A stretch of 59,761 nt of DNA from Desulfurivibrio dismutans (lineage in GTDB: Bacteria; Desulfobacterota; Desulfobulbia; Desulfobulbales; Desulfurivibrionaceae), in the NCBI RefSeq assembly GCF_029210385.1, contig NZ_JARGDQ010000012.1, positions 1-59,761 of the forward strand. The letters run 5' to 3'. Below are positions 52,035 through 59,761 of this stretch, one piece after another. Made by a program: the position numbers and the translations under genes. Numbering within the stretch: position 1 is the first letter of the stretch; every line of letters begins with the position of its first letter. The notes under the pieces were generated by a model that was not told where the DNA came from, made no database searches, and saw only the letters and a program-made list of their open reading frames with translations.

Positions 52035-52395
52035 TTACTCTTCTTCCGGCAGTTCCTCGGAGTAGCGGCACTCTTTGTCCGGGCAGACCAGGCGGCGGCC
52101 CTTCTTGTTGCTTTTTTCTACCAGGAAGGGGGAGTTGCACAGCGGGCAGGGTTTGGCCACTGGTTTGTCCCATAGGGCGAAGGTGCACTTGGGGTAGCGG
52201 TTGCAACTGTAGAAGACCTTGCCCCTTTTGGAGACCTTCTGCACGAGTTCCCCGTCGCAGCCCTCTTCCGGGCAGCCCACCCCGGTGCTGATGGCCCGGA
52301 CGTTTTTGCAGTCCGGGTAACCCGAACAGGCCAGAAATTTTCCGAAGCGGCCATGTTTGTAGACCATGGGGCGGCCGCATTTATCGCAACTCTCG
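52035..52395 (-). pseudogene. topA: DNA topoisomerase I, 3' end only (zinc-ribbon tail)
   Basis: The frame reads CESCDKCGRPMVYKHGRFGKFLACSGYPDCKN, then CPEEGCDGELVQKV, FYSCNRYPKCTFA, CPLCNSPFLVEK and VCPDKECRYSEE. These are three type IA topoisomerase zinc ribbons. At 52396 the gene meets the terminal inverted repeat of an IS element, and the coding frame meets a stop inside the IS. The catalytic part is not in the window. Either an IS-mediated rearrangement split the gene or the assembly joins two IS copies. Confidence 0.92.
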
Positions 52396-54184
52396 CAGGA
52401 GTTTAACCACTCAGCTCATACCAGAGCGACAAAACAACGCATATTCAAAAAAATGTCACTGCCCGGGCTGTAAGGCCCCATTCATCACTTTATAGCCCAA
52501 AGCCTGGAGAATTGCCGCCTGTTTTTCGTTGGGTTCCTCCAGGCGGCGTTGGGCCTTTCGTGCACCGGTCGGCCAGAGCAGGCAGGAATGGAGGGTGCGC
52601 AGGCTCTCCATGGCCTCGGCGGCGGAGATCCTGAGCCCGTTACGGGCCAGGCGGATTTCCAGCAGACGCAGATAGGCCAGGGCAACCACGCAGGTGAAGA
52701 TATGGCACCTGATCTTGCCGTCGGTCCAGTGGCGCAGGGGCAGCATGGCAACCATTTCGTGATCCTTGCTCTGGCGGAAGCTCTGCTCCACCACGTAGCG
52801 GTCCAGGCCGGCCTGGACGATCTCGTCGGTGTTCCAGTCGGGATGATCGGTGACCAAGATGTTCTTGCCGAAGTAGTCGATATGGCGACCGATCCGATAG
52901 TGGTTTTTGCGACAGTTCATCCGTAAGCGCTTGCCGTCTCTAAACAGCTCCACTCGGTAAAGATCATCCGGCAGGTGCAGTTCCCGGCAGAGGTTGAGAT
53001 AACGCTCCTGCACCGTTGCGAGGTTACGCCACTGGGCTGCCTGGCCGTTGACCTTGTGGCGCATCAGATGCACTTCCTCCTCCAAACGCAGCATTTTCTG
53101 CTCGAAAGCGTAACGCTGCTTGGTGGCGGTGCGGGGATTATAGGTGACCACCACACTGCGCTCCCTGCCCCACAACTCCCGGCTGGTCCGCCAGGCCAGC
53201 AACAGGTCGTCATCGCGGCCTTTGGCCTTGAGCTGCCGGTTCTTGGCGGTATCGACCACCTGGAAATGCTTGCGATCCACGTGGATCAGCTCTTCGGCGT
53301 AATGGGGCGAATAGCTGGTGACGAAATGGAGCCGGTCATTGGCGTCGATGGCGGCGATATTCGCCTCGGCGTTGATCCCTTTGTCGAAAACGATGGTCAT
53401 GGTGCCTTGGCCGCCACGGCCGGCGACCTTGAACAGCTCCTGGGCCAGCTTGAGGAAAACCTTGGAGTCGTGACGATTGCCTTCATACTCTCGGTAAAAC
53501 AGCGGCAGCCGATTGTCTCTGGCGACCAGTAAGGCCACCCCGACCTGCCGCAGCCAGTGCCGCCCCTCTTTGTTCCGACCACGTTGGGCCAGTTCCGAAG
53601 AGGTGTTGCCGGCCATGAAGGTGTAGTAGTTGGTGGTATCGAACATCACCGCGTCCGCCGATGAGGGCTCCAGCTCCGCCAGCTTACGGAAAAAGAGATC
53701 GGCCACCGCTGCCAGCTTGGCACTGTCCATCTTCTCCCACTGCTTCCAATAGGCCTGGGAACTCAAGGCATCAAGGGCCACCGGCCGGATCTGCTGGATG
53801 GCGGTGGTGCGATACCATTCCGCCAAGGCCCGTTTGGACCTGGGGGCCACCATCCGGTTGGCGATGGCATAGAAGAAATAATCCCCCACCGAAGGCGAGC
53901 CTTTTCGCTCCGCCGGCGACAGCACCGAATCAACCAGGCCGGCAATGTTAATCTCCCGATCCAGCAACTCGGCCAGCCACAACGAGCCGAACTCCTGCAC
54001 CTGGATGCGCTCGACCTCCCGGCTACCAGCACCCTTGGCCAACTCCAGCAACCGCTCGGGGCTGCCGAGATAAACCTGGTTGACCACCTTGGGCTTGCCA
54101 TCCACTCGGGCGATCTCCCGCAGGTAATAGTAGGGTCTGCCTTTTTTGATTTTCTTGTGTATGTGCGCCATGGTTAAACTCCTG
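52396..54184 (-). mobile_element. IS1634-like insertion sequence (IS4 superfamily)
   Basis: The element is 1,789 bp. Its ends are the 14-bp inverted repeats CAGGAGTTTAACCA (52396-52409 as read on plus) and TGGTTAAACTCCTG (54171-54184). The flanks differ (ACTCTCG on the left, TCATAGT on the right), so no target duplication is visible. It carries a single transposase gene on the minus strand. The left flank is topA, the right flank an Rhs gene. Confidence 0.92.
52456..54171 (-). CDS. IS1634-family transposase
   Basis: The 571-residue protein starts MAHIHKKIKKGRPYYYLREIARVDGKPKVVNQVYLGSPERL, the common N-terminus of IS1634-like transposases. The DDE catalytic residues are likely in DAVMFDTTNYYTF, the middle MTIVFDKGINAEANIAAI, and the C-terminal VEQSFRQSKDHEMVAMLPLRHW. 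ALAYLRLLEIRLARNG follows. The start codon overlaps the terminal repeat, whose sequence CAGGAG acts as the ribosome binding site. The frame is continuous with the upstream Rhs gene, giving an 827-codon open frame, but no fusion is needed for expression. Confidence 0.93.
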   Translation of the reverse strand: MAHIHKKIKKGRPYYYLREIARVDGKPKVVNQVYLGSPERLLELAKGAGSREVERIQVQEFGSLWLAELLDREINIAGLVDSVLSPAERKGSPSVGDYFFYAIANRMVAPRSKRALAEWYRTTAIQQIRPVALDALSSQAYWKQWEKMDSAKLAAVADLFFRKLAELEPSSADAVMFDTTNYYTFMAGNTSSELAQRGRNKEGRHWLRQVGVALLVARDNRLPLFYREYEGNRHDSKVFLKLAQELFKVAGRGGQGTMTIVFDKGINAEANIAAIDANDRLHFVTSYSPHYAEELIHVDRKHFQVVDTAKNRQLKAKGRDDDLLLAWRTSRELWGRERSVVVTYNPRTATKQRYAFEQKMLRLEEEVHLMRHKVNGQAAQWRNLATVQERYLNLCRELHLPDDLYRVELFRDGKRLRMNCRKNHYRIGRHIDYFGKNILVTDHPDWNTDEIVQAGLDRYVVEQSFRQSKDHEMVAMLPLRHWTDGKIRCHIFTCVVALAYLRLLEIRLARNGLRISAAEAMESLRTLHSCLLWPTGARKAQRRLEEPNEKQAAILQALGYKVMNGALQPGQ

Positions 54185-55130
54185 TCATAGTAACGGGCGC
54201 GGTAGAAGTACAGGCCGATTTCGGGGTCGTACTCGCGGCCGGTGTAGCGGTAGGGCTGTTTGATCCGGTTGCCGCCGCCGGGGGCGAGGTTGCCGATATG
54301 GCCATTGGCGTCGGTTTCCAGCACGATATCCTCGTGGTCGTAGACGTAGCGGGTGGTGGTCTCCACCCCTTCGGGATCGACAAGCCGTTTTTCCAGCCGG
54401 CGGCCGAAGGGGTCGTAGGCAAACTCCACCCTGGTGCCGTCGGGCATCACCACCTCACGCAACCGGTTGGCAAAATCCCAGCGGTAACTGGTCTCGCCCT
54501 CGGCGGTCACCTTGCTGATCAGGTTGCCGTTGGCGTCGTAATCGTACCGGTCCTGATCGGAACTCAGCAACCGGTTGTTCGGGTCGTGGCGGTAATCGTC
54601 GTGGCGGTGGCTGGCCTGGCGGTTGCCGGCGGGATCGTATTGGTAGAACTCCGGCTGTTGCGGCCCGCCCTGGGGTGCTCCGCCTTGCTCCATCCCCCGG
54701 CCCTGTCCCCGGCTCTGGCCCTGGCCGGGGGTGGCCGGCCTGCCGCCGGGAGAGGCCGGGTTGGCCTCCAGCAGCCGGTGGGTGCGATCGTAGCGATAGT
54801 CGATCTCCTGATCCGCTCCGGTCAGACGCAAGCGGTTGCCGACCGGGTCGAGATCGTAGACGGCGGCGGCGATGACGGCGGTGCCTGACCGGTGGACAAG
54901 GCCCGTTAAGCGACCGGCGGGATCGTAATCGTAATCCACCCATCGGCCGTCGGGAGTCAGGGCGCCGGTGCGCCGACCGGCGGCGTCGTAGCTGTATTCC
55001 AGGGTCCAGCCCCGGGAGTCGCTGACTCCGGCGATCCGCCCGGCGTCATCGTAGTTGAAGCTGTAGCTGATCTCGGGATTGGCAGCCCGGGTGATCCGAG
55101 GACGGCTCCGTCGGGATCGACACGTTCCAC
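54185..55130 (-). pseudogene. Rhs fragment 1 (interrupted by the IS, with frame change and deletion)
   Basis: YD-repeat protein sequence (YDYDPAGRLTGLVHRSGTAVIAAAVYDLDPVGNRL; YRYTGREYDPEIGLYFYRARYYD) is almost identical to the Rhs gene at 55477-57297. The open part starts at 54939; upstream the same repeats continue in another frame to about 55090, where the homology ends abruptly. About 45 codons (GPGIDEPLALYHGREIYYY region) are missing between IGN and APGGGNRIK. The IS cuts it right after RARYYD, so the core end and toxin tip are lost. Confidence 0.88.
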
Positions 55131-55198: not shown

Positions 55199-55450
55199 TC
55201 ACTCAACTTCAGAACGAGACTTTTTTAGTTTGCATTTACTGCAATAGTAAAAATACCTTTCTTTTTTTAAAAGCAATAAAATTCCAGAAATAACTGCAAA
55301 TAAAATATATAAAAATGGAATTATTGTGCCATAAGCAATAAACATCAACAAAGGAAACATTGGCAAACAACTTATGAGAACAATAAGTCCATATTTTTTG
55401 TAATATTTTACCTCTAGTTCATTACTACATATTTTGCATATTGCAGCCAT
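55199..55450 (-). CDS. Small zinc-ribbon/membrane protein, possible immunity protein of Rhs tip 1
   Basis: The 83-residue product has CKIC near the start and YYCSKC near the end, flanking two hydrophobic segments (about 22-40 and 44-61). It is AT-rich compared with the Rhs core. It starts 26 bases after the stop of the Rhs gene on the same strand, the usual place for an immunity gene. I do not recognise the family; the immunity role is inferred from position. Confidence 0.65.
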   Translation of the reverse strand: MAAICKICSNELEVKYYKKYGLIVLISCLPMFPLLMFIAYGTIIPFLYILFAVISGILLLLKKERYFYYCSKCKLKKSRSEVE

Positions 55451-55476: not shown

Positions 55477-57297
55477 CTATTTGCATGGTGTACTGCTATC
55501 ACCTGGTGCATCAATGATCGAGTTAAAAAAATTGTCAATTATTTCATTTGTAAGTTCCTCAATAGACTGTCCCAATCCTACAACCTCAAACCCTGTTTGA
55601 ATTAGTAGACCTCCACTGAATCCAGCAGCACCCCCGACTATCGCTGAAGGAACAGTCCCAATGCCCAAGGCGGGAACACCAACGATTGCACCGCCAACTG
55701 CACCAGCAGCAGCACCGCCAAGACCGGCACTAATAATTCTTCTCCCTGCTGGATCAATATCTCGCATATAGCTTTGAGAAATGCTTCTAATTGTTTTATC
55801 AACAAATTGCTTGATTAAAAATGTTCGGGTCAGCCCCCACGGATCAATCCAATTAACCGGATTATTCAGGACATACCCATACAGATTAACATCACCTCCC
55901 GCAAAGCCGATGGGGTCTTGGGAGATGAACCGGCCGATATCCGGATCGTAGTAGCGGGCGCGGTAGAAGTACAGGCCGATGTCGGGGTCGTACTCGCGGC
56001 CGGTGTAGCGGTAAGGCTGCTTGATCCGGTTGCCGCCGCCGGGGGCGGGGTTGCCGAAGGCGTCGTACTGGTAGCTCTGCACCAACCGGGCCCGCTGGTC
56101 GCTGAGGGCGGTGATCGTGCCCAGGCCGTCGGAGTGATAGTAATAGATCTCGCGGCCATGGTAAAGGGCCAGGGGTTCGTCGATGCCGGGGCCGTGGAGG
56201 TAACGGTTGCCGATCTGGCCATTGGCGTCGGTCTCCAGCACGATATCCTCGTGGTCGTAAACGTAGCGGGTGGTGGTCTCGGCCCCTTCGGGATCGGCAA
56301 GCCGTTTTTCCAGCCGGCGGCCGAAGGGGTCGTAGGCAAACTCCACCTTGGTGCCGTCGGGCATCACCACCTCACGCAACCGGTTGGCAAAATCCCAGCG
56401 ATAAATGGTCTCGCCCTCGGCGGTCACCTTGCTGATCAGGTTGCTGTTGGCGTCGTAATCGTACCGGGCCTGATCGGCGCTCAGCAACCGGTTGTTCCGG
56501 TCGTGGCGGTATTCGTCGTGGCGGTGGCTGGCCTGGCGGTTGCCGGCGGGATCGTATTGGTAGAACTCCGGCTGTTGCGGCCCGCCCTGGGGTGCTCCGC
56601 CTTGCTCCAGCCCCCGGCCCTGTCCCCGGCCCTGTCCCTCCTGGCCGGGGGTGGCCGGCCTGCCGCCGGGAGCGACCGGGTTGGCCTCCAGCAGCCGGTG
56701 GGTGCGATCGTAGCGATAGTCGATCTCCTGATCCGCTCCGGTCAGACGCAAGCGGTTGCCGACCGGGTCGAGATCGTAGACGGCGGCGGCGATGACGGCG
56801 GTGCCTGACCGGTGGACAAGGCCCGTTAAGCGACCGGCAGGATCGTAATCGTAGTCTGCCTTGACCCCGTTGGGGTAAACCAGGGCGGCACGCCGGCCAG
56901 CCGGGTCATAGCGGAAACTGAAGGTGCGGCCGCTGTCGTTGATCTCGGCGAGCCGACCGGCGGGATCGTAACCGTAATCCACCCATCGGCCGTCGGGAGT
57001 CAGGGCGCCGGTGCGCCGACCGGCGGCGTCGTAGCTGTATTCCAGGTTCCAGCCCCGGGAGTCGCTGACCCCGGTGATCCGCCCGGCGTCATCGTAGTTG
57101 AAGCTGTAGCTGATCTCGGGATTGGCAGCCCGGGTGATCCGCCCCTGGGCGTTATAGCTGAACGTGGTTTCGGTGCCGTCGGGGTACTGCTTGACCAGCA
57201 GCCGACCCAGGGCATCGTGATGATAACCGATGCAGAAAATGGGGTCAGACACCATTTTGGCCCGCCATTTTCGCCCGATTTTCGATTTGCAAGTCAA
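55477..57297 (-). CDS. Rhs/YD-repeat protein with C-terminal tip 1 (5'-truncated orphan module)
   Basis: The 606-residue frame starts directly in YD repeats (YHHDALGRLLVKQYPDGTETTFSYNAQGRI) without signal, PAAR or N-terminal plug. It ends with the Rhs core hallmark RARYYDPDIGRFISQDPIGFAGGDVNLYGYVLNNPVNWIDPWGL. The following 117 residues (encoded by 55477-55830) are unrelated to the other Rhs tip and include a long glycine/alanine-rich hydrophobic stretch (SAGLGGAAAGAVGGAIVGVPALGIGTV..). Such a tip is the toxin part of polymorphic Rhs systems. The lack of a proper N-terminus suggests an orphan module displaced by recombination. Its upstream border contains a GGGGTC palindrome like those at 51 and 2262. 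Confidence 0.85.
   Translation of the reverse strand: MTCKSKIGRKWRAKMVSDPIFCIGYHHDALGRLLVKQYPDGTETTFSYNAQGRITRAANPEISYSFNYDDAGRITGVSDSRGWNLEYSYDAAGRRTGALTPDGRWVDYGYDPAGRLAEINDSGRTFSFRYDPAGRRAALVYPNGVKADYDYDPAGRLTGLVHRSGTAVIAAAVYDLDPVGNRLRLTGADQEIDYRYDRTHRLLEANPVAPGGRPATPGQEGQGRGQGRGLEQGGAPQGGPQQPEFYQYDPAGNRQASHRHDEYRHDRNNRLLSADQARYDYDANSNLISKVTAEGETIYRWDFANRLREVVMPDGTKVEFAYDPFGRRLEKRLADPEGAETTTRYVYDHEDIVLETDANGQIGNRYLHGPGIDEPLALYHGREIYYYHSDGLGTITALSDQRARLVQSYQYDAFGNPAPGGGNRIKQPYRYTGREYDPDIGLYFYRARYYDPDIGRFISQDPIGFAGGDVNLYGYVLNNPVNWIDPWGLTRTFLIKQFVDKTIRSISQSYMRDIDPAGRRIISAGLGGAAAGAVGGAIVGVPALGIGTVPSAIVGGAAGFSGGLLIQTGFEVVGLGQSIEELTNEIIDNFFNSIIDAPGDSSTPCK
57235..57259. repeat. GGGGTCAGAC palindrome at the start of the Rhs orphan module
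   Basis: AAAATGG and CCATTTT flank GGTCAGACA, a diverged form of the GGGGTC-N-GACCCC palindrome seen at 51-75, 179-191 and 2262-2286. It marks the 5' limit of the Rhs homology. Confidence 0.6.
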
Positions 57298-57362: not shown

Positions 57363-57626
57363 CTATTCATAGTGGGTCCACATCCGCAGCACCTTCACCG
57401 TGCGAAGATCCTCGAAAACTTGATAGACAAGCCGATGTTTGATGTTGATGCGCCGCGAACAGGCACCAGCCAAATCACCAACGAGCTTTTCGTATGGTGG
57501 TGGATTTTGGAAGGGATTGTCGGCGAGGATATCAAGTAATTGCTGTGTTTTCGGCTTCAAGCCGGAAGCGGCAAGCTTTTTCGCATCTTTTTGGGCGTGT
57601 TTGGTGTAGACCAGCTTCCAGTTCAC
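57363..57626 (-). CDS. yoeB: YoeB-family mRNA interferase toxin
   Basis: The 87-residue protein matches YoeB throughout, including KLVYTKHAQKDAKKL, YEKLVGDLAGACSRRINIKHRLVYQV and VKVLRMWTHYE. Catalytic residues of YoeB correspond to Glu46, Arg65, His85 and Tyr86 here. The toxin cuts mRNA at the ribosomal A site. It overlaps the antitoxin gene by four bases, the usual arrangement. Confidence 0.95.
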   Translation of the reverse strand: MNWKLVYTKHAQKDAKKLAASGLKPKTQQLLDILADNPFQNPPPYEKLVGDLAGACSRRINIKHRLVYQVFEDLRTVKVLRMWTHYE

Positions 57627-57865
57627 CAGTCCAATTCCTCATCACACTCTTCAACTGGCGTCTTCATACCGTCAAGGATCGATTCCTTCAGTTCGGGAAC
57701 GGAATGCAGGTAGAGGGTCTCCTGCACGGCACGCCAGTCGTCTTCAGACACCAGGACCGCGTTGTTGCGCTTGCCGGTGATCTGAATGGGATCGTGCGAC
57801 TCGGCTACATCGTCGAGTAGCTTGTAGAGATGCTTTCTGGCTTCGGTTGCAGTAATTGTGGTCAT
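57623..57865 (-). CDS. yefM: YefM/Phd-family antitoxin
   Basis: This 80-residue protein starts MTTITATEARKHLYKLLDDVAESHDPIQITGKRNNAVLVSEDDWRAVQETLYL, the Phd/YefM DNA-binding N-terminal domain. The acidic C-terminus (PVEECDEELDW) wraps the toxin. I chose the ATG at 57865 (GGGAGG upstream); the open frame continues to 58033. An inverted-repeat operator lies at 57880-57897. Confidence 0.95.
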   Translation of the reverse strand: MTTITATEARKHLYKLLDDVAESHDPIQITGKRNNAVLVSEDDWRAVQETLYLHSVPELKESILDGMKTPVEECDEELDW

Positions 57866-57879
57866 TGACGCCTCCCTAA

Positions 57880-57897
57880 CGTACGTCAAATCGTACG
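57880..57897. promoter_or_regulatory. Operator of the yefM-yoeB pair
   Basis: Two CGTACG palindromes are separated by six bases, 15 bases upstream of the yefM start. YefM operators typically carry TGTACA-core palindromes, so this is the likely autorepression site. Confidence 0.65.
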
Positions 57898-57936
57898 CTA
57901 CCTGTAGTAACCTTGTCAACCAGAATGATTTCTCTT

Positions 57937-58189
57937 TTTTCTTGCCCGCCAATAAGCGGCGTAAACCCCTGGTGCTGCGAGGCGCCAGAAAAGTCGGCAA
58001 GTCAACCCTGATGCGGCGCTTTGCTCGGGGCAAGGTGGCGGTGCGCTTTGACCTGGATCCGCCAAATTGTCAGGAAGTGGCCCACACAATAACCATCGGA
58101 ACCGGCGGCGAGGAGACAAGATTCTCGCTGCCCCCCCTCCCCTCTATGAGGTGGACGAACTGCTGCGAATTATCGGCGACCAGCCTTAG
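57937..58189 (+). pseudogene. Remnant of an AAA ATPase with DUF4143
   Basis: RRKPLVLRGARKVGKSTLMRRFA is the P-loop start of this ATPase family. It is followed after few residues by FDLDPPNCQEVAHTITIGTGGEETRFSL and, in another frame, by PLYEVDELLRIIGDQP and a stop. The last part is the C-terminal end of the family. About 300 codons in the middle are missing and there is a frameshift, so the gene is dead. Confidence 0.75.
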
Positions 58190-58259: not shown

Positions 58260-58757
58260 TCAGTAATTCAACCTGATCGTCAGATCTATGTTTTGCCCAT
58301 CGTATGGAAAGCTGGCGGCAGAAAACGCAGGGGCGCCGAATTCGTCAACGGTCGTATTTGAAAAGCCGTAGCCTTCCTTGGGGACACCAAGCCAATTGGT
58401 GTCGAGCTCCCCGTTCATGTTCTCATCATGGATGACGGCGATCGCATAGGTTCCCGGCGGGATATCCGAAAAGACGCATTGCGCTTTTGTCTTCTGAATT
58501 TTCCTTATTATAATTGCCTTTGCCGAACCCAAAAATTTATTGGGAAAACCCTCTGGTGATTCGAAAATCCCACAAGCTATATTTCCAGTACTGTTTTTTA
58601 TATTCGGAATTTTCACGTGAATTCCCGGGCATGATGATTGGGCGAAGGCGATGGTGGGAAAATTCGCAAACACCAGCACTGCAGACAATGCACATCGAAC
58701 GCCCATGGAGACCAACGCGGACTTCCGATGAGTTGACTTACCCATGATTTTCCTCAT
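58260..58757 (-). CDS. DUF2141 family exported protein
   Basis: The protein has up to 182 residues in frame. It shows a signal peptide (hydrophobic segment VLVFANFPTIAFA) and the DUF2141 pattern: VKIPNIKNSTGNIACGIFESPEGFPN, then VFSDIPPGTYAIAVIHDENMNGELDTNWLGVPKEGYGFSN. The D.N.NG.LDTN.LG.P.EGYGFS part is the family core. I prefer a start at 58757 or 58745, since the signal peptide would be preceded by too many residues from 58808. The function is unknown. Confidence 0.85.
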   Translation of the reverse strand: MRKIMGKSTHRKSALVSMGVRCALSAVLVFANFPTIAFAQSSCPGIHVKIPNIKNSTGNIACGIFESPEGFPNKFLGSAKAIIIRKIQKTKAQCVFSDIPPGTYAIAVIHDENMNGELDTNWLGVPKEGYGFSNTTVDEFGAPAFSAASFPYDGQNIDLTIRLNY

Positions 58758-58830
58758 AGTTCCGATCTCCGTGACATGATGGAGACAACCCAATCTCGCT
58801 CCGCCCAACCCATCGAGAAAAAATAGATCT

Positions 58831-58912
58831 GTCCCGGTTTTACCGGGTTTTCCGCGGTTTTCCGCGCGGTTTTCCGGTCCCGGTTTTCCGGTTTTCCGTT
58901 TTCTGGTTTTCC
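58831..58912. repeat. Low-complexity GGTTTTCC repeats
   Basis: The motif GGTTTTCCG recurs about seven times with variable spacers (CG, CGCG, TCCC). It lies between the DUF2141 gene and the small membrane protein gene. Confidence 0.8.
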
Positions 58913-59143
58913 TTATTTGTCCTTCATTCCAGATAGTTTACGATAAAAATTGATGATACTTATAACGCATGCCAATGAAATGACGGTGCTAATAAAAATT
59001 ACTTCCCCCAAGGTCGGGGTTATATCAAATAATCTGGCCAAAATCAGGGACACAAATATACCTATCGCTACACCTATAGGTAGGTAGACAAATGAATTAA
59101 GGAGAAAACGTTTTTTCTGGTTTTTTGGAATGCGATTTAACAT
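58913..59143 (-). CDS. Small two-helix membrane protein, possible immunity protein of Rhs tip 2
   Basis: The 76-residue protein has two hydrophobic segments (about 15-35 and 46-64) and a basic start MLNRIPKNQKKRF. It starts nine bases after the Rhs stop on the same strand. It is not similar to the 83-residue protein at 55199, as expected if each protects against its own tip. The immunity role is inferred. Confidence 0.65.
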   Translation of the reverse strand: MLNRIPKNQKKRFLLNSFVYLPIGVAIGIFVSLILARLFDITPTLGEVIFISTVISLACVISIINFYRKLSGMKDK

Positions 59144-59152
59144 TGATATGCC

Positions 59153-59761
59153 CTAATTTTCACATTTTTCCTTTTCTATTATTTCTATCTGCTTAAACCC
59201 TTGCATCATCACCCAAGAACCAAAAGCCATTCCTGTTACCCCAGTCGCTATGGGGACAATTCCTTTTGGCCCCATAAAGACTCCATAACTCAAAAGTTTC
59301 GCATTTACAGAAGTAATGGCTGCGCCGGCAGCAATTAAGTCCCATGCCCCCGGGGCTGAGATATTGTAACTCTCAAAAAAACCTGGCGGTGGCTTCTTGC
59401 CGTACATATCTGCGATCTCTCGATAACCTCCATCGCCCCAGACCGGTCCGATCATGGTCAATCCATATGGATCAATCCAATTAACCGGATTATTCAGGAC
59501 ATACCCATACAGATTAACATCACCTCCCGCAAAGCCAATGGGGTCTTGGGAGATGAACCGGCCGATATCCGGATCGTAGTAGCGGGCGCGATAGAAGTAC
59601 AGGCCGATTTCGGGGTCGTACTCGCGGCCGGTGTAGCGGTAGGGCTGTTTGATCCGGTTGCCGCCGCCGGGGGCGGGGTTGCCGAAGGCGTCGTACTGGT
59701 AGTTCTGCACCACCCGGGCCCGCTGGTCGCTGAGGGCGGTGATCGTGCCCAGGCCATCGGA
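59153..59761 (-). CDS. Rhs/YD-repeat protein with C-terminal tip 2 (continues beyond the window)
   Basis: The last 203 codons of an Rhs gene are present; the start lies beyond the right edge. The core ends RARYYDPDIGRFISQDPIGFAGGDVNLYGYVLNNPVNWIDPYGL, nearly identical in DNA to 55830-56140. The following 101 residues (59153-59458) are unrelated to tip 1. They are AT-richer and hydrophobic in parts (LIAAGAAITSVNAKLLSYGVFM; GVTGMAFGSWVMMQGF). The main, intact Rhs gene may be this one. Confidence 0.88.
   Translation of the reverse strand, partial: SDGLGTITALSDQRARVVQNYQYDAFGNPAPGGGNRIKQPYRYTGREYDPEIGLYFYRARYYDPDIGRFISQDPIGFAGGDVNLYGYVLNNPVNWIDPYGLTMIGPVWGDGGYREIADMYGKKPPPGFFESYNISAPGAWDLIAAGAAITSVNAKLLSYGVFMGPKGIVPIATGVTGMAFGSWVMMQGFKQIEIIEKEKCEN

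Follow-up and report, generated by a model that had tools for sequence, protein, structure and literature searches.

A short Rhs tip and its two-helix neighbour at a contig end of Desulfurivibrio dismutans: a predicted toxin/immunity module that may act at membranes

The Rhs locus considered here lies at one end of contig NZ_JARGDQ010000012.1 of Desulfurivibrio dismutans, a stretch of 59,761 nucleotides that was analysed whole (the window) and that is contig C4, one of the 33 contigs of a draft genome of 2.84 Mb that is 99.99% complete. The right end of the window falls within a minus-strand Rhs core, behind which come a variable tip (tip 2) and then a small gene whose product has two predicted membrane helices (partner 2), while elsewhere in the window a second copy of the core end is followed by a tip and a partner of its own (tip 1 and partner 1; Table 1). 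Because the contig stops within the core, the front of the tip-2 Rhs gene lies outside the window. What is left of the core is readily recognised: TIGR03696, the model of the Rhs core, covers residues 23-101 of the protein at the contig end (P0001), scores 98.2 bits where the cut-off is 32.5, and stops at DPYGL, where the sequence reads NPVNWIDPYGL, in keeping with the PxxxxDPxGL form of Rhs proteins. The core also matches solved Rhs shells, including that of Tse5 (8cp6, E 1.6e-13), and here too the match stops at residue 101, at DPYGL; the plug motif DPIG-X20-DPYG is present, its spacing counted by eye. The first-pass annotation of this DNA, made from the letters and their translated reading frames, had placed a 101-residue tip directly after DPYGL, and this stands, as the tip codons (59156-59458, minus strand) begin where the core match ends. 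A 'teneurin-like protein' of solved structure (9pt5) was aligned for a further 48 residues into tip 2, with poor column confidence, and was dropped as an overextension.

Table 1. Coordinates of the Rhs modules and of the topA copy in the window
Feature	Position	Strand	Basis
Rhs core, C-terminal end with DPIG-X20-DPYGL plug; truncated where the contig stops	59459..59761	-	TIGR03696; solved Rhs shells
Tip 2, 101-residue candidate Rhs C-terminal toxin	59156..59458	-	sequence, boundary alignment, hydropathy
Gap between tip-2 stop (TAG) and partner-2 ATG, nine bases	59144..59152	-	sequence
Partner 2, predicted immunity protein of 76 residues with two membrane helices	58913..59143	-	hydropathy
Second copy of the core end, DNA 95.8% identical	55831..56133	-	DNA alignment
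Tip 1 (117 residues; no relation to tip 2)	55480..55830	-	sequence comparison
Partner 1, 83 residues, two transmembrane segments, unrelated to partner 2	55199..55450	-	sequence comparison, hydropathy
Copy of topA 3' end, on the far side of the Rhs island	52035..52396	-	365-column match, 98.9%, L172 3032-3396

The presence of two core copies allowed the module to be delimited to within a codon. Over 306 nucleotides, the last three of which are the first codon of the tip, the core copies ahead of tips 1 and 2 share 95.8% of their bases; past these, blocks of 30 bases have 9-11 in common, so that the recombination boundary lies within one codon of DPxGL. Beyond it the two tips are unrelated (E = 3.6) and so are the two partners (E = 3.1), each value coming from a search of a small set, and hence a tip and the gene next to it have been found to differ together behind a conserved core within this one genome. 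The base composition shifts as well: guanine plus cytosine (GC) makes up 59.7% of the core and 60.5% of the window, and drops to 46.5% in tip 2 and 34.6% in partner 2, as it does in tip 1 (43.9%) and partner 1 (27.0%). Tip 2 ends with a TAG stop at 59153-59155 and partner 2 runs from its ATG at 59143 to a stop codon ending at 58913; a Shine-Dalgarno-like TAGGG, noted by eye, overlaps the tip-2 stop and lies seven bases ahead of the partner-2 ATG. Promoter-like and terminator-like sites near the two genes were no more numerous than in shuffled sequence.

Exchangeable rhs-CT/rhsI modules, in which a variable tip and the adjacent immunity gene follow DPxGL and orphan modules lie downstream, are described in PMC3150448, and the near-identical core, the sharp boundary, the unrelated tips and partners and the GC shift together carry the signature of such a module as that source sets it out. 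That tip 2 and partner 2 form an exchangeable Rhs toxin/immunity module, their function being predicted, is therefore well supported by the boundary, the base composition, the position of the genes and the same arrangement in relatives, and set beside the modules and orphan modules of PMC3150448 it is new in sequence content only. On the same grounds the claim that the locus holds a second candidate toxin/immunity pair, with a tip unlike tip 1 and, nine bases on, a two-helix partner unrelated to the first, was borne out. We consider it highly likely that the two genes encode a toxin and an immunity protein of some kind.

Partner 2, which is very probably the immunity protein, has two 19-residue segments (18-36 and 48-66), each with a Kyte-Doolittle mean of 2.46. 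Of the 312 open reading frames (ORFs) of 45-130 residues in the window, just two carry such a pair of segments, namely those immediately behind the two Rhs tips. Since both ends of the protein are basic (MLNRIPKNQKKR..., ...YRKLSGMKDK) and its loop is weakly charged, the positive-inside rule predicts that its N- and C-termini both face the cytoplasm. Tip 2 has no His, a single Arg and one Cys (residue 99), and its most hydrophobic parts are two Gly/Ala-rich stretches, a 19-mer at 67-85 (1.46) and a 21-mer at 41-61 (1.37), that place it at the 83rd percentile for maximum hydropathy among 48 Rhs tips. Neither Pfam nor NCBIfam nor PHROGs gave a match for it.

Relatives were sought widely. Tip 2 had no match outside its own genome among 97 genomes of relatives or 257 of the class (overlapping sets that both include the source genome), and neither did tip 2 and partner 2 taken as one query among 395 genomes of the phylum, again with the source genome included. 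A pattern scan of the contigs of 84,980 species gave 57 pattern matches to tip 2 and a scan of genome contigs gave 414 to partner 2, none of them confirmed; such scans detect close relatives only, so distant homologues may exist. Plasmids and phages held no match to tip 2, viral contigs one pattern match that was not confirmed, and the best match among solved structures (E 0.031) was no better than chance. For partner 2 there was nothing among solved structures or in PADLOC; the best values were E 0.14 in Pfam and E 0.023 in PHROGs, and of 17 matches listed in the 257 genomes one was the source genome itself and the other 16 had E values of 9.5e-4 or worse. These weak matches were taken as chance similarity between membrane segments.

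The arrangement itself, as distinct from the sequences, proved to be common among the loci sampled. Rhs cores occur in 33 of the 97 relatives and in at least 96 of the 257 class genomes (the source genome counted in both), and from part of the matches listed for the class genomes plus the loci of relatives, some of which overlap, 76 tips were extracted, our two included, by pattern matching, with the downstream ORF chosen by a length rule. A downstream ORF was present for 67 tips, and 40 of these ORFs were 45-130 residues long; at least two transmembrane segments were predicted in 24 of the 40 and exactly two in 21. With the window's two pairs set aside the count is 22 of 38, as against 56 of 2173 control ORFs (2.6%), a pool of uncurated six-frame ORFs from the fetched loci that may include real genes and that includes loci L072-L080, brought in through partner-like matches. 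Partners with two transmembrane segments are a common feature behind Rhs tips in the sampled loci, and membrane-level immunity may accordingly be common in the class. Support for the idea that tip and partner change together in these relatives is mixed. When each comparison was counted in one direction, 15 pairs of tips matched at E <= 1e-10, four of them without a partner, and among the other 11 the partners were related (E <= 0.01) in six and unrelated in five; against co-inheritance, five further pairs of partners matched at E <= 0.01 while their tips did not.

From these observations the following explanation was assembled, which as a whole we hold to be about as probable as not (roughly 0.5). 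Tip 2 would be housed inside the Rhs shell, whose aspartyl-protease plug, by homology to the solved shells, would sever it behind DPYGL. After delivery to an adjacent cell, the two Gly/Ala-rich helices of the tip (about residues 38-90) would enter the target's inner membrane as a hairpin and make it leaky, and partner 2, sitting in the inner membrane of the producer with both ends in the cytoplasm, would pair with the incoming hairpin and block it. If this is so, tip 2 would be very short for an Rhs toxin and would offer a simple model of how two-helix immunity stops a two-helix toxin.

Precedents for such a toxin exist. In Pseudomonas aeruginosa the released tip of Tse5 forms pores, from which the two-transmembrane Tsi5 protects, according to PMC9637101 and PMC10684867. 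Tip 2 and partner 2 resemble Tse5/Tsi5 in having an Rhs shell with a DPxG...DPxG plug, a short tip with no predicted enzymatic function and a two-transmembrane immunity protein; however, Tse5 travels by the type VI secretion system (T6SS), of which no sheath protein or Hcp was found in this genome, the C-terminal (CT) toxin of Tse5 has 149 residues as against 101, and no sequence relation was seen, the Tse5 chain compared having 1121 residues and ending with the shell. Ionophores of contact-dependent growth inhibition (CDI) are, in the account of PMC11630599, countered by highly polymorphic proteins of 72-100 residues that are predicted to fold as two-helix hairpins whose ends both lie in the cytoplasm, a description that fits the 76 residues, two segments, basic flanks and predicted topology of partner 2; their carrier is CdiA, whereas that of tip 2 is Rhs, and the CDI toxins described there combine an entry domain with a predicted five-helix bundle and share a GxxxGxxxG zipper, a motif that tip 2 does not have. 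Tox-WTIP, which PMC3482391 lists as a predicted two-helix pore-forming tip that occurs with RHS repeats, is likewise a small two-helix membrane tip, by prediction, on polymorphic toxins, although the motifs that define it, RxxR in its first helix and Wx[ST]IP in its second, are absent from tip 2, which has a single Arg, no WxTIP or WxSIP and no Pfam match. The same source names Imm-CdiI and Imm17 as two-transmembrane immunity families. Tip 2 thus falls outside the Tse5 group on T6SS delivery, outside the CDI ionophores on the zipper and outside Tox-WTIP on the motifs, and it could still work like any of them. The kind, an Rhs or CDI toxin tip with two-helix immunity, is already known; what is new, within the searches made, is the sequences of tip 2 and partner 2 and their setting, which is less usual in that no T6SS was found and the one other contig with RHS repeats encodes an Rhs front half with a signal peptide recognised by eye.

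The points that weigh against the membrane-hairpin explanation are best taken together. The 'hydrophobic segments' claimed for tip 2 in the first-pass annotation turned out to be only moderately so, as both Gly/Ala-rich stretches fall below the usual transmembrane threshold of 1.6 and the maximum hydropathy of the tip does not exceed that of its own shuffles (P = 0.26). The glycine zipper GxxxGxxxG is absent, with isolated GxxxG motifs only (residues 4, 59 and 76). AlphaFold2 gave an unusable model of the tip alone (predicted local distance difference test, pLDDT, 40.7). A fused model of tip and partner, obtained by read-through with the TAG taken as Gln, had an overall pLDDT of 53.7 and a predicted template modelling score (pTM) of 0.43, and Foldseek found nothing at E <= 0.001 with it; the fused model nevertheless folded the tip better than when it was alone, into two helices (36-61 and 63-102, block-mean pLDDT 52-70 over residues 31-100), which lends weak support to a membrane hairpin. 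The top of the Foldseek matches (best 50 of 93) was occupied by the alpha-pore-forming toxins AhlB/SmhB at E 1.0, which is not evidence. As for partner 2, 763 of 5000 shuffles of its residues kept two transmembrane segments, which puts part of its signal down to composition, and neither protein has a detectable homologue from which conservation could speak for selection. Nor did the census help: the hydrophobicity of a tip did not go with a two-transmembrane partner (P = 0.15 for 59 tips, P = 0.29 for 48), and the presence of a hydrophobic stretch near the tip end was unrelated to partner type at three cut-offs (P = 1 at each). Since neither hydropathy nor stretch position differed between partner classes, a membrane partner alone does not prove a membrane-acting tip, a lesson that also follows from PMC3482391, where Imm-CdiI is listed as the chief immunity protein against a predicted RNase tip. 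The suggestion that the two pairs belong to a class of membrane-directed Rhs effectors has therefore fared unevenly: such effectors are published and 22 of the 38 small genes encode at least two transmembrane segments, but tip 2 itself, without a homologue, with its pLDDT of 40.7 and in a sample where tip hydropathy does not predict a two-segment partner, was not shown to act on membranes. That it attacks them is a plausible inference.

The main rival would have the hydrophobic stretch of tip 2 serve entry only, with the two-helix partner blocking uptake at the membrane and no pore being formed. For two-transmembrane immunity proteins PMC3482391 suggests an action at uptake, and the lack of a link between tip hydrophobicity and partner type speaks for this rival; but the hydrophobic part of tip 2 reaches to within 16 residues of its end, with about 40 residues preceding it, so that little of the tip is left to be a separate toxin, and we regard this reading as unlikely. 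Somewhat less probable still is that tip 2 is a small protein of unrecognised fold that works as an enzyme or binds proteins in the cytoplasm or the periplasm. Neither AlphaFold2 nor Foldseek assigned a fold to tip 2, and L037 and L113 (maximum Kyte-Doolittle value 0.36 and 0.53) are cases in which the tips of relatives are not hydrophobic in spite of partners with two or more segments, both of which speak for this reading; against it stand the moderate hydrophobicity of about half of the 101 residues of tip 2, the absence of His, the lone Cys at residue 99 and the absence of a family match. Finally, the tip or the whole module might be a decaying or truncated remnant without activity, an idea to which the worn state of the locus lends itself, with a third core copy (52456-54939) that runs into other sequence, a topA fragment at the edge and a contig end inside the gene. 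The frames of core, tip and partner are nonetheless open to the contig end, the gap between the genes is short and has a Shine-Dalgarno-like site, and the boundary is sharp, all of which make a remnant improbable.

Any of the active readings needs a way out of the producing cell, and the T6SS does not appear to be it. Searches of the whole genome (99.99% complete) with PF05591 for the T6SS sheath, PF05638 for Hcp and PF04984 for a phage-type sheath gave no match, Escherichia coli having matched as positive control in each. RHS repeats were detected nowhere but on contig C4 and at the start of contig C33, where the front of an Rhs gene, with DUF6531 and ten RHS repeats, runs off the contig; this front half has a Sec-type leader, MKTRRHSASKFITTICMFFFCLVPQMLQAAS, recognised by eye, and adjoins a full-length topA. 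With a copy of the topA 3' end at one edge of the Rhs island in C4 (Table 1) and the complete topA beside the C33 front half, the island appears to be bracketed by topA ends, and this, together with the orientation of the genes, suggests that C33 carries the front of the tip-2 gene. The tip-2 Rhs protein would then be exported by Sec, on the strength of the signal peptide read by eye in C33.

Leader-like sequences, again judged by eye, also stand at the front of the full-length Rhs proteins of three relatives (G002, G008 and G009), and the Rhs protein of G002, a member of the same genus as D. dismutans, has teneurin-type domains. The full-length Rhs protein of the complete genome from this genus (L173 2864-10213) has teneurin NHL, TTR-like and YD-shell matches, with the FN-plug below cut-off, and ends in a glycine-rich tip. 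A review (PMC6297184) treats the YD protein of Desulfurivibrio alkaliphilus as teneurin-like, with an uncharacterised toxin domain, and compares it with the ancestor of animal teneurins; the G002 Rhs appears to be this protein. The papers that a literature search returned as naming both Desulfurivibrio and Rhs were all on teneurins. It is tempting to extend these likenesses to the order, with Desulfobulbales that lack a T6SS exporting partly teneurin-like Rhs proteins by Sec, their tips largely membrane-acting and matched by two-helix immunity proteins in an arsenal like that of the CDI ionophores, and with tip 2 as founder of a hairpin-toxin family whose active part is about 60 residues; this larger picture is speculative and, taken whole, rather doubtful.

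A separate group of tips emerged from the census. Eight of them (alignment A1: L008, L016, L040, L047, L114, L131, L141 and L143), 123-160 residues long, share an invariant Cys-Cys pair, and all eight have a small two-transmembrane partner, which in L131 lies 148 bases behind the tip. The contig end truncates a ninth tip (L030), and the remote members L039 and L041 have partners with one and three segments. NCBIfam gave no match to any of the eight, nor did Pfam at E <= 0.01 for the three scanned (L008, L016 and L141), and possibly these tips are an undescribed Rhs-CT family with membrane-hairpin immunity. Tip 2 is not a member.

The rest of the Rhs island has further features of note. Tip 1 (55480-55830, minus strand) matches DUF6861 (PF21724, E 3.7e-7) in a region that takes in its glycine-rich segment, and a search of the literature for papers naming DUF6861 found none. 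The third core copy (52456-54939, minus strand) keeps its frame through about 570 further residues of a different, transposase-like appearance; Pfam at E <= 0.001 gave RHS repeats only. Between the two Rhs modules sits a YefM/YoeB-like toxin-antitoxin pair (57363-58033, minus strand), adjoined by a gene for a DUF2141 protein (58260-58808), and directly behind partner 2 there is an imperfect tandem repeat of CGGTTTTC-like units (58835-58912), accompanied by a short inverted repeat noted by eye.
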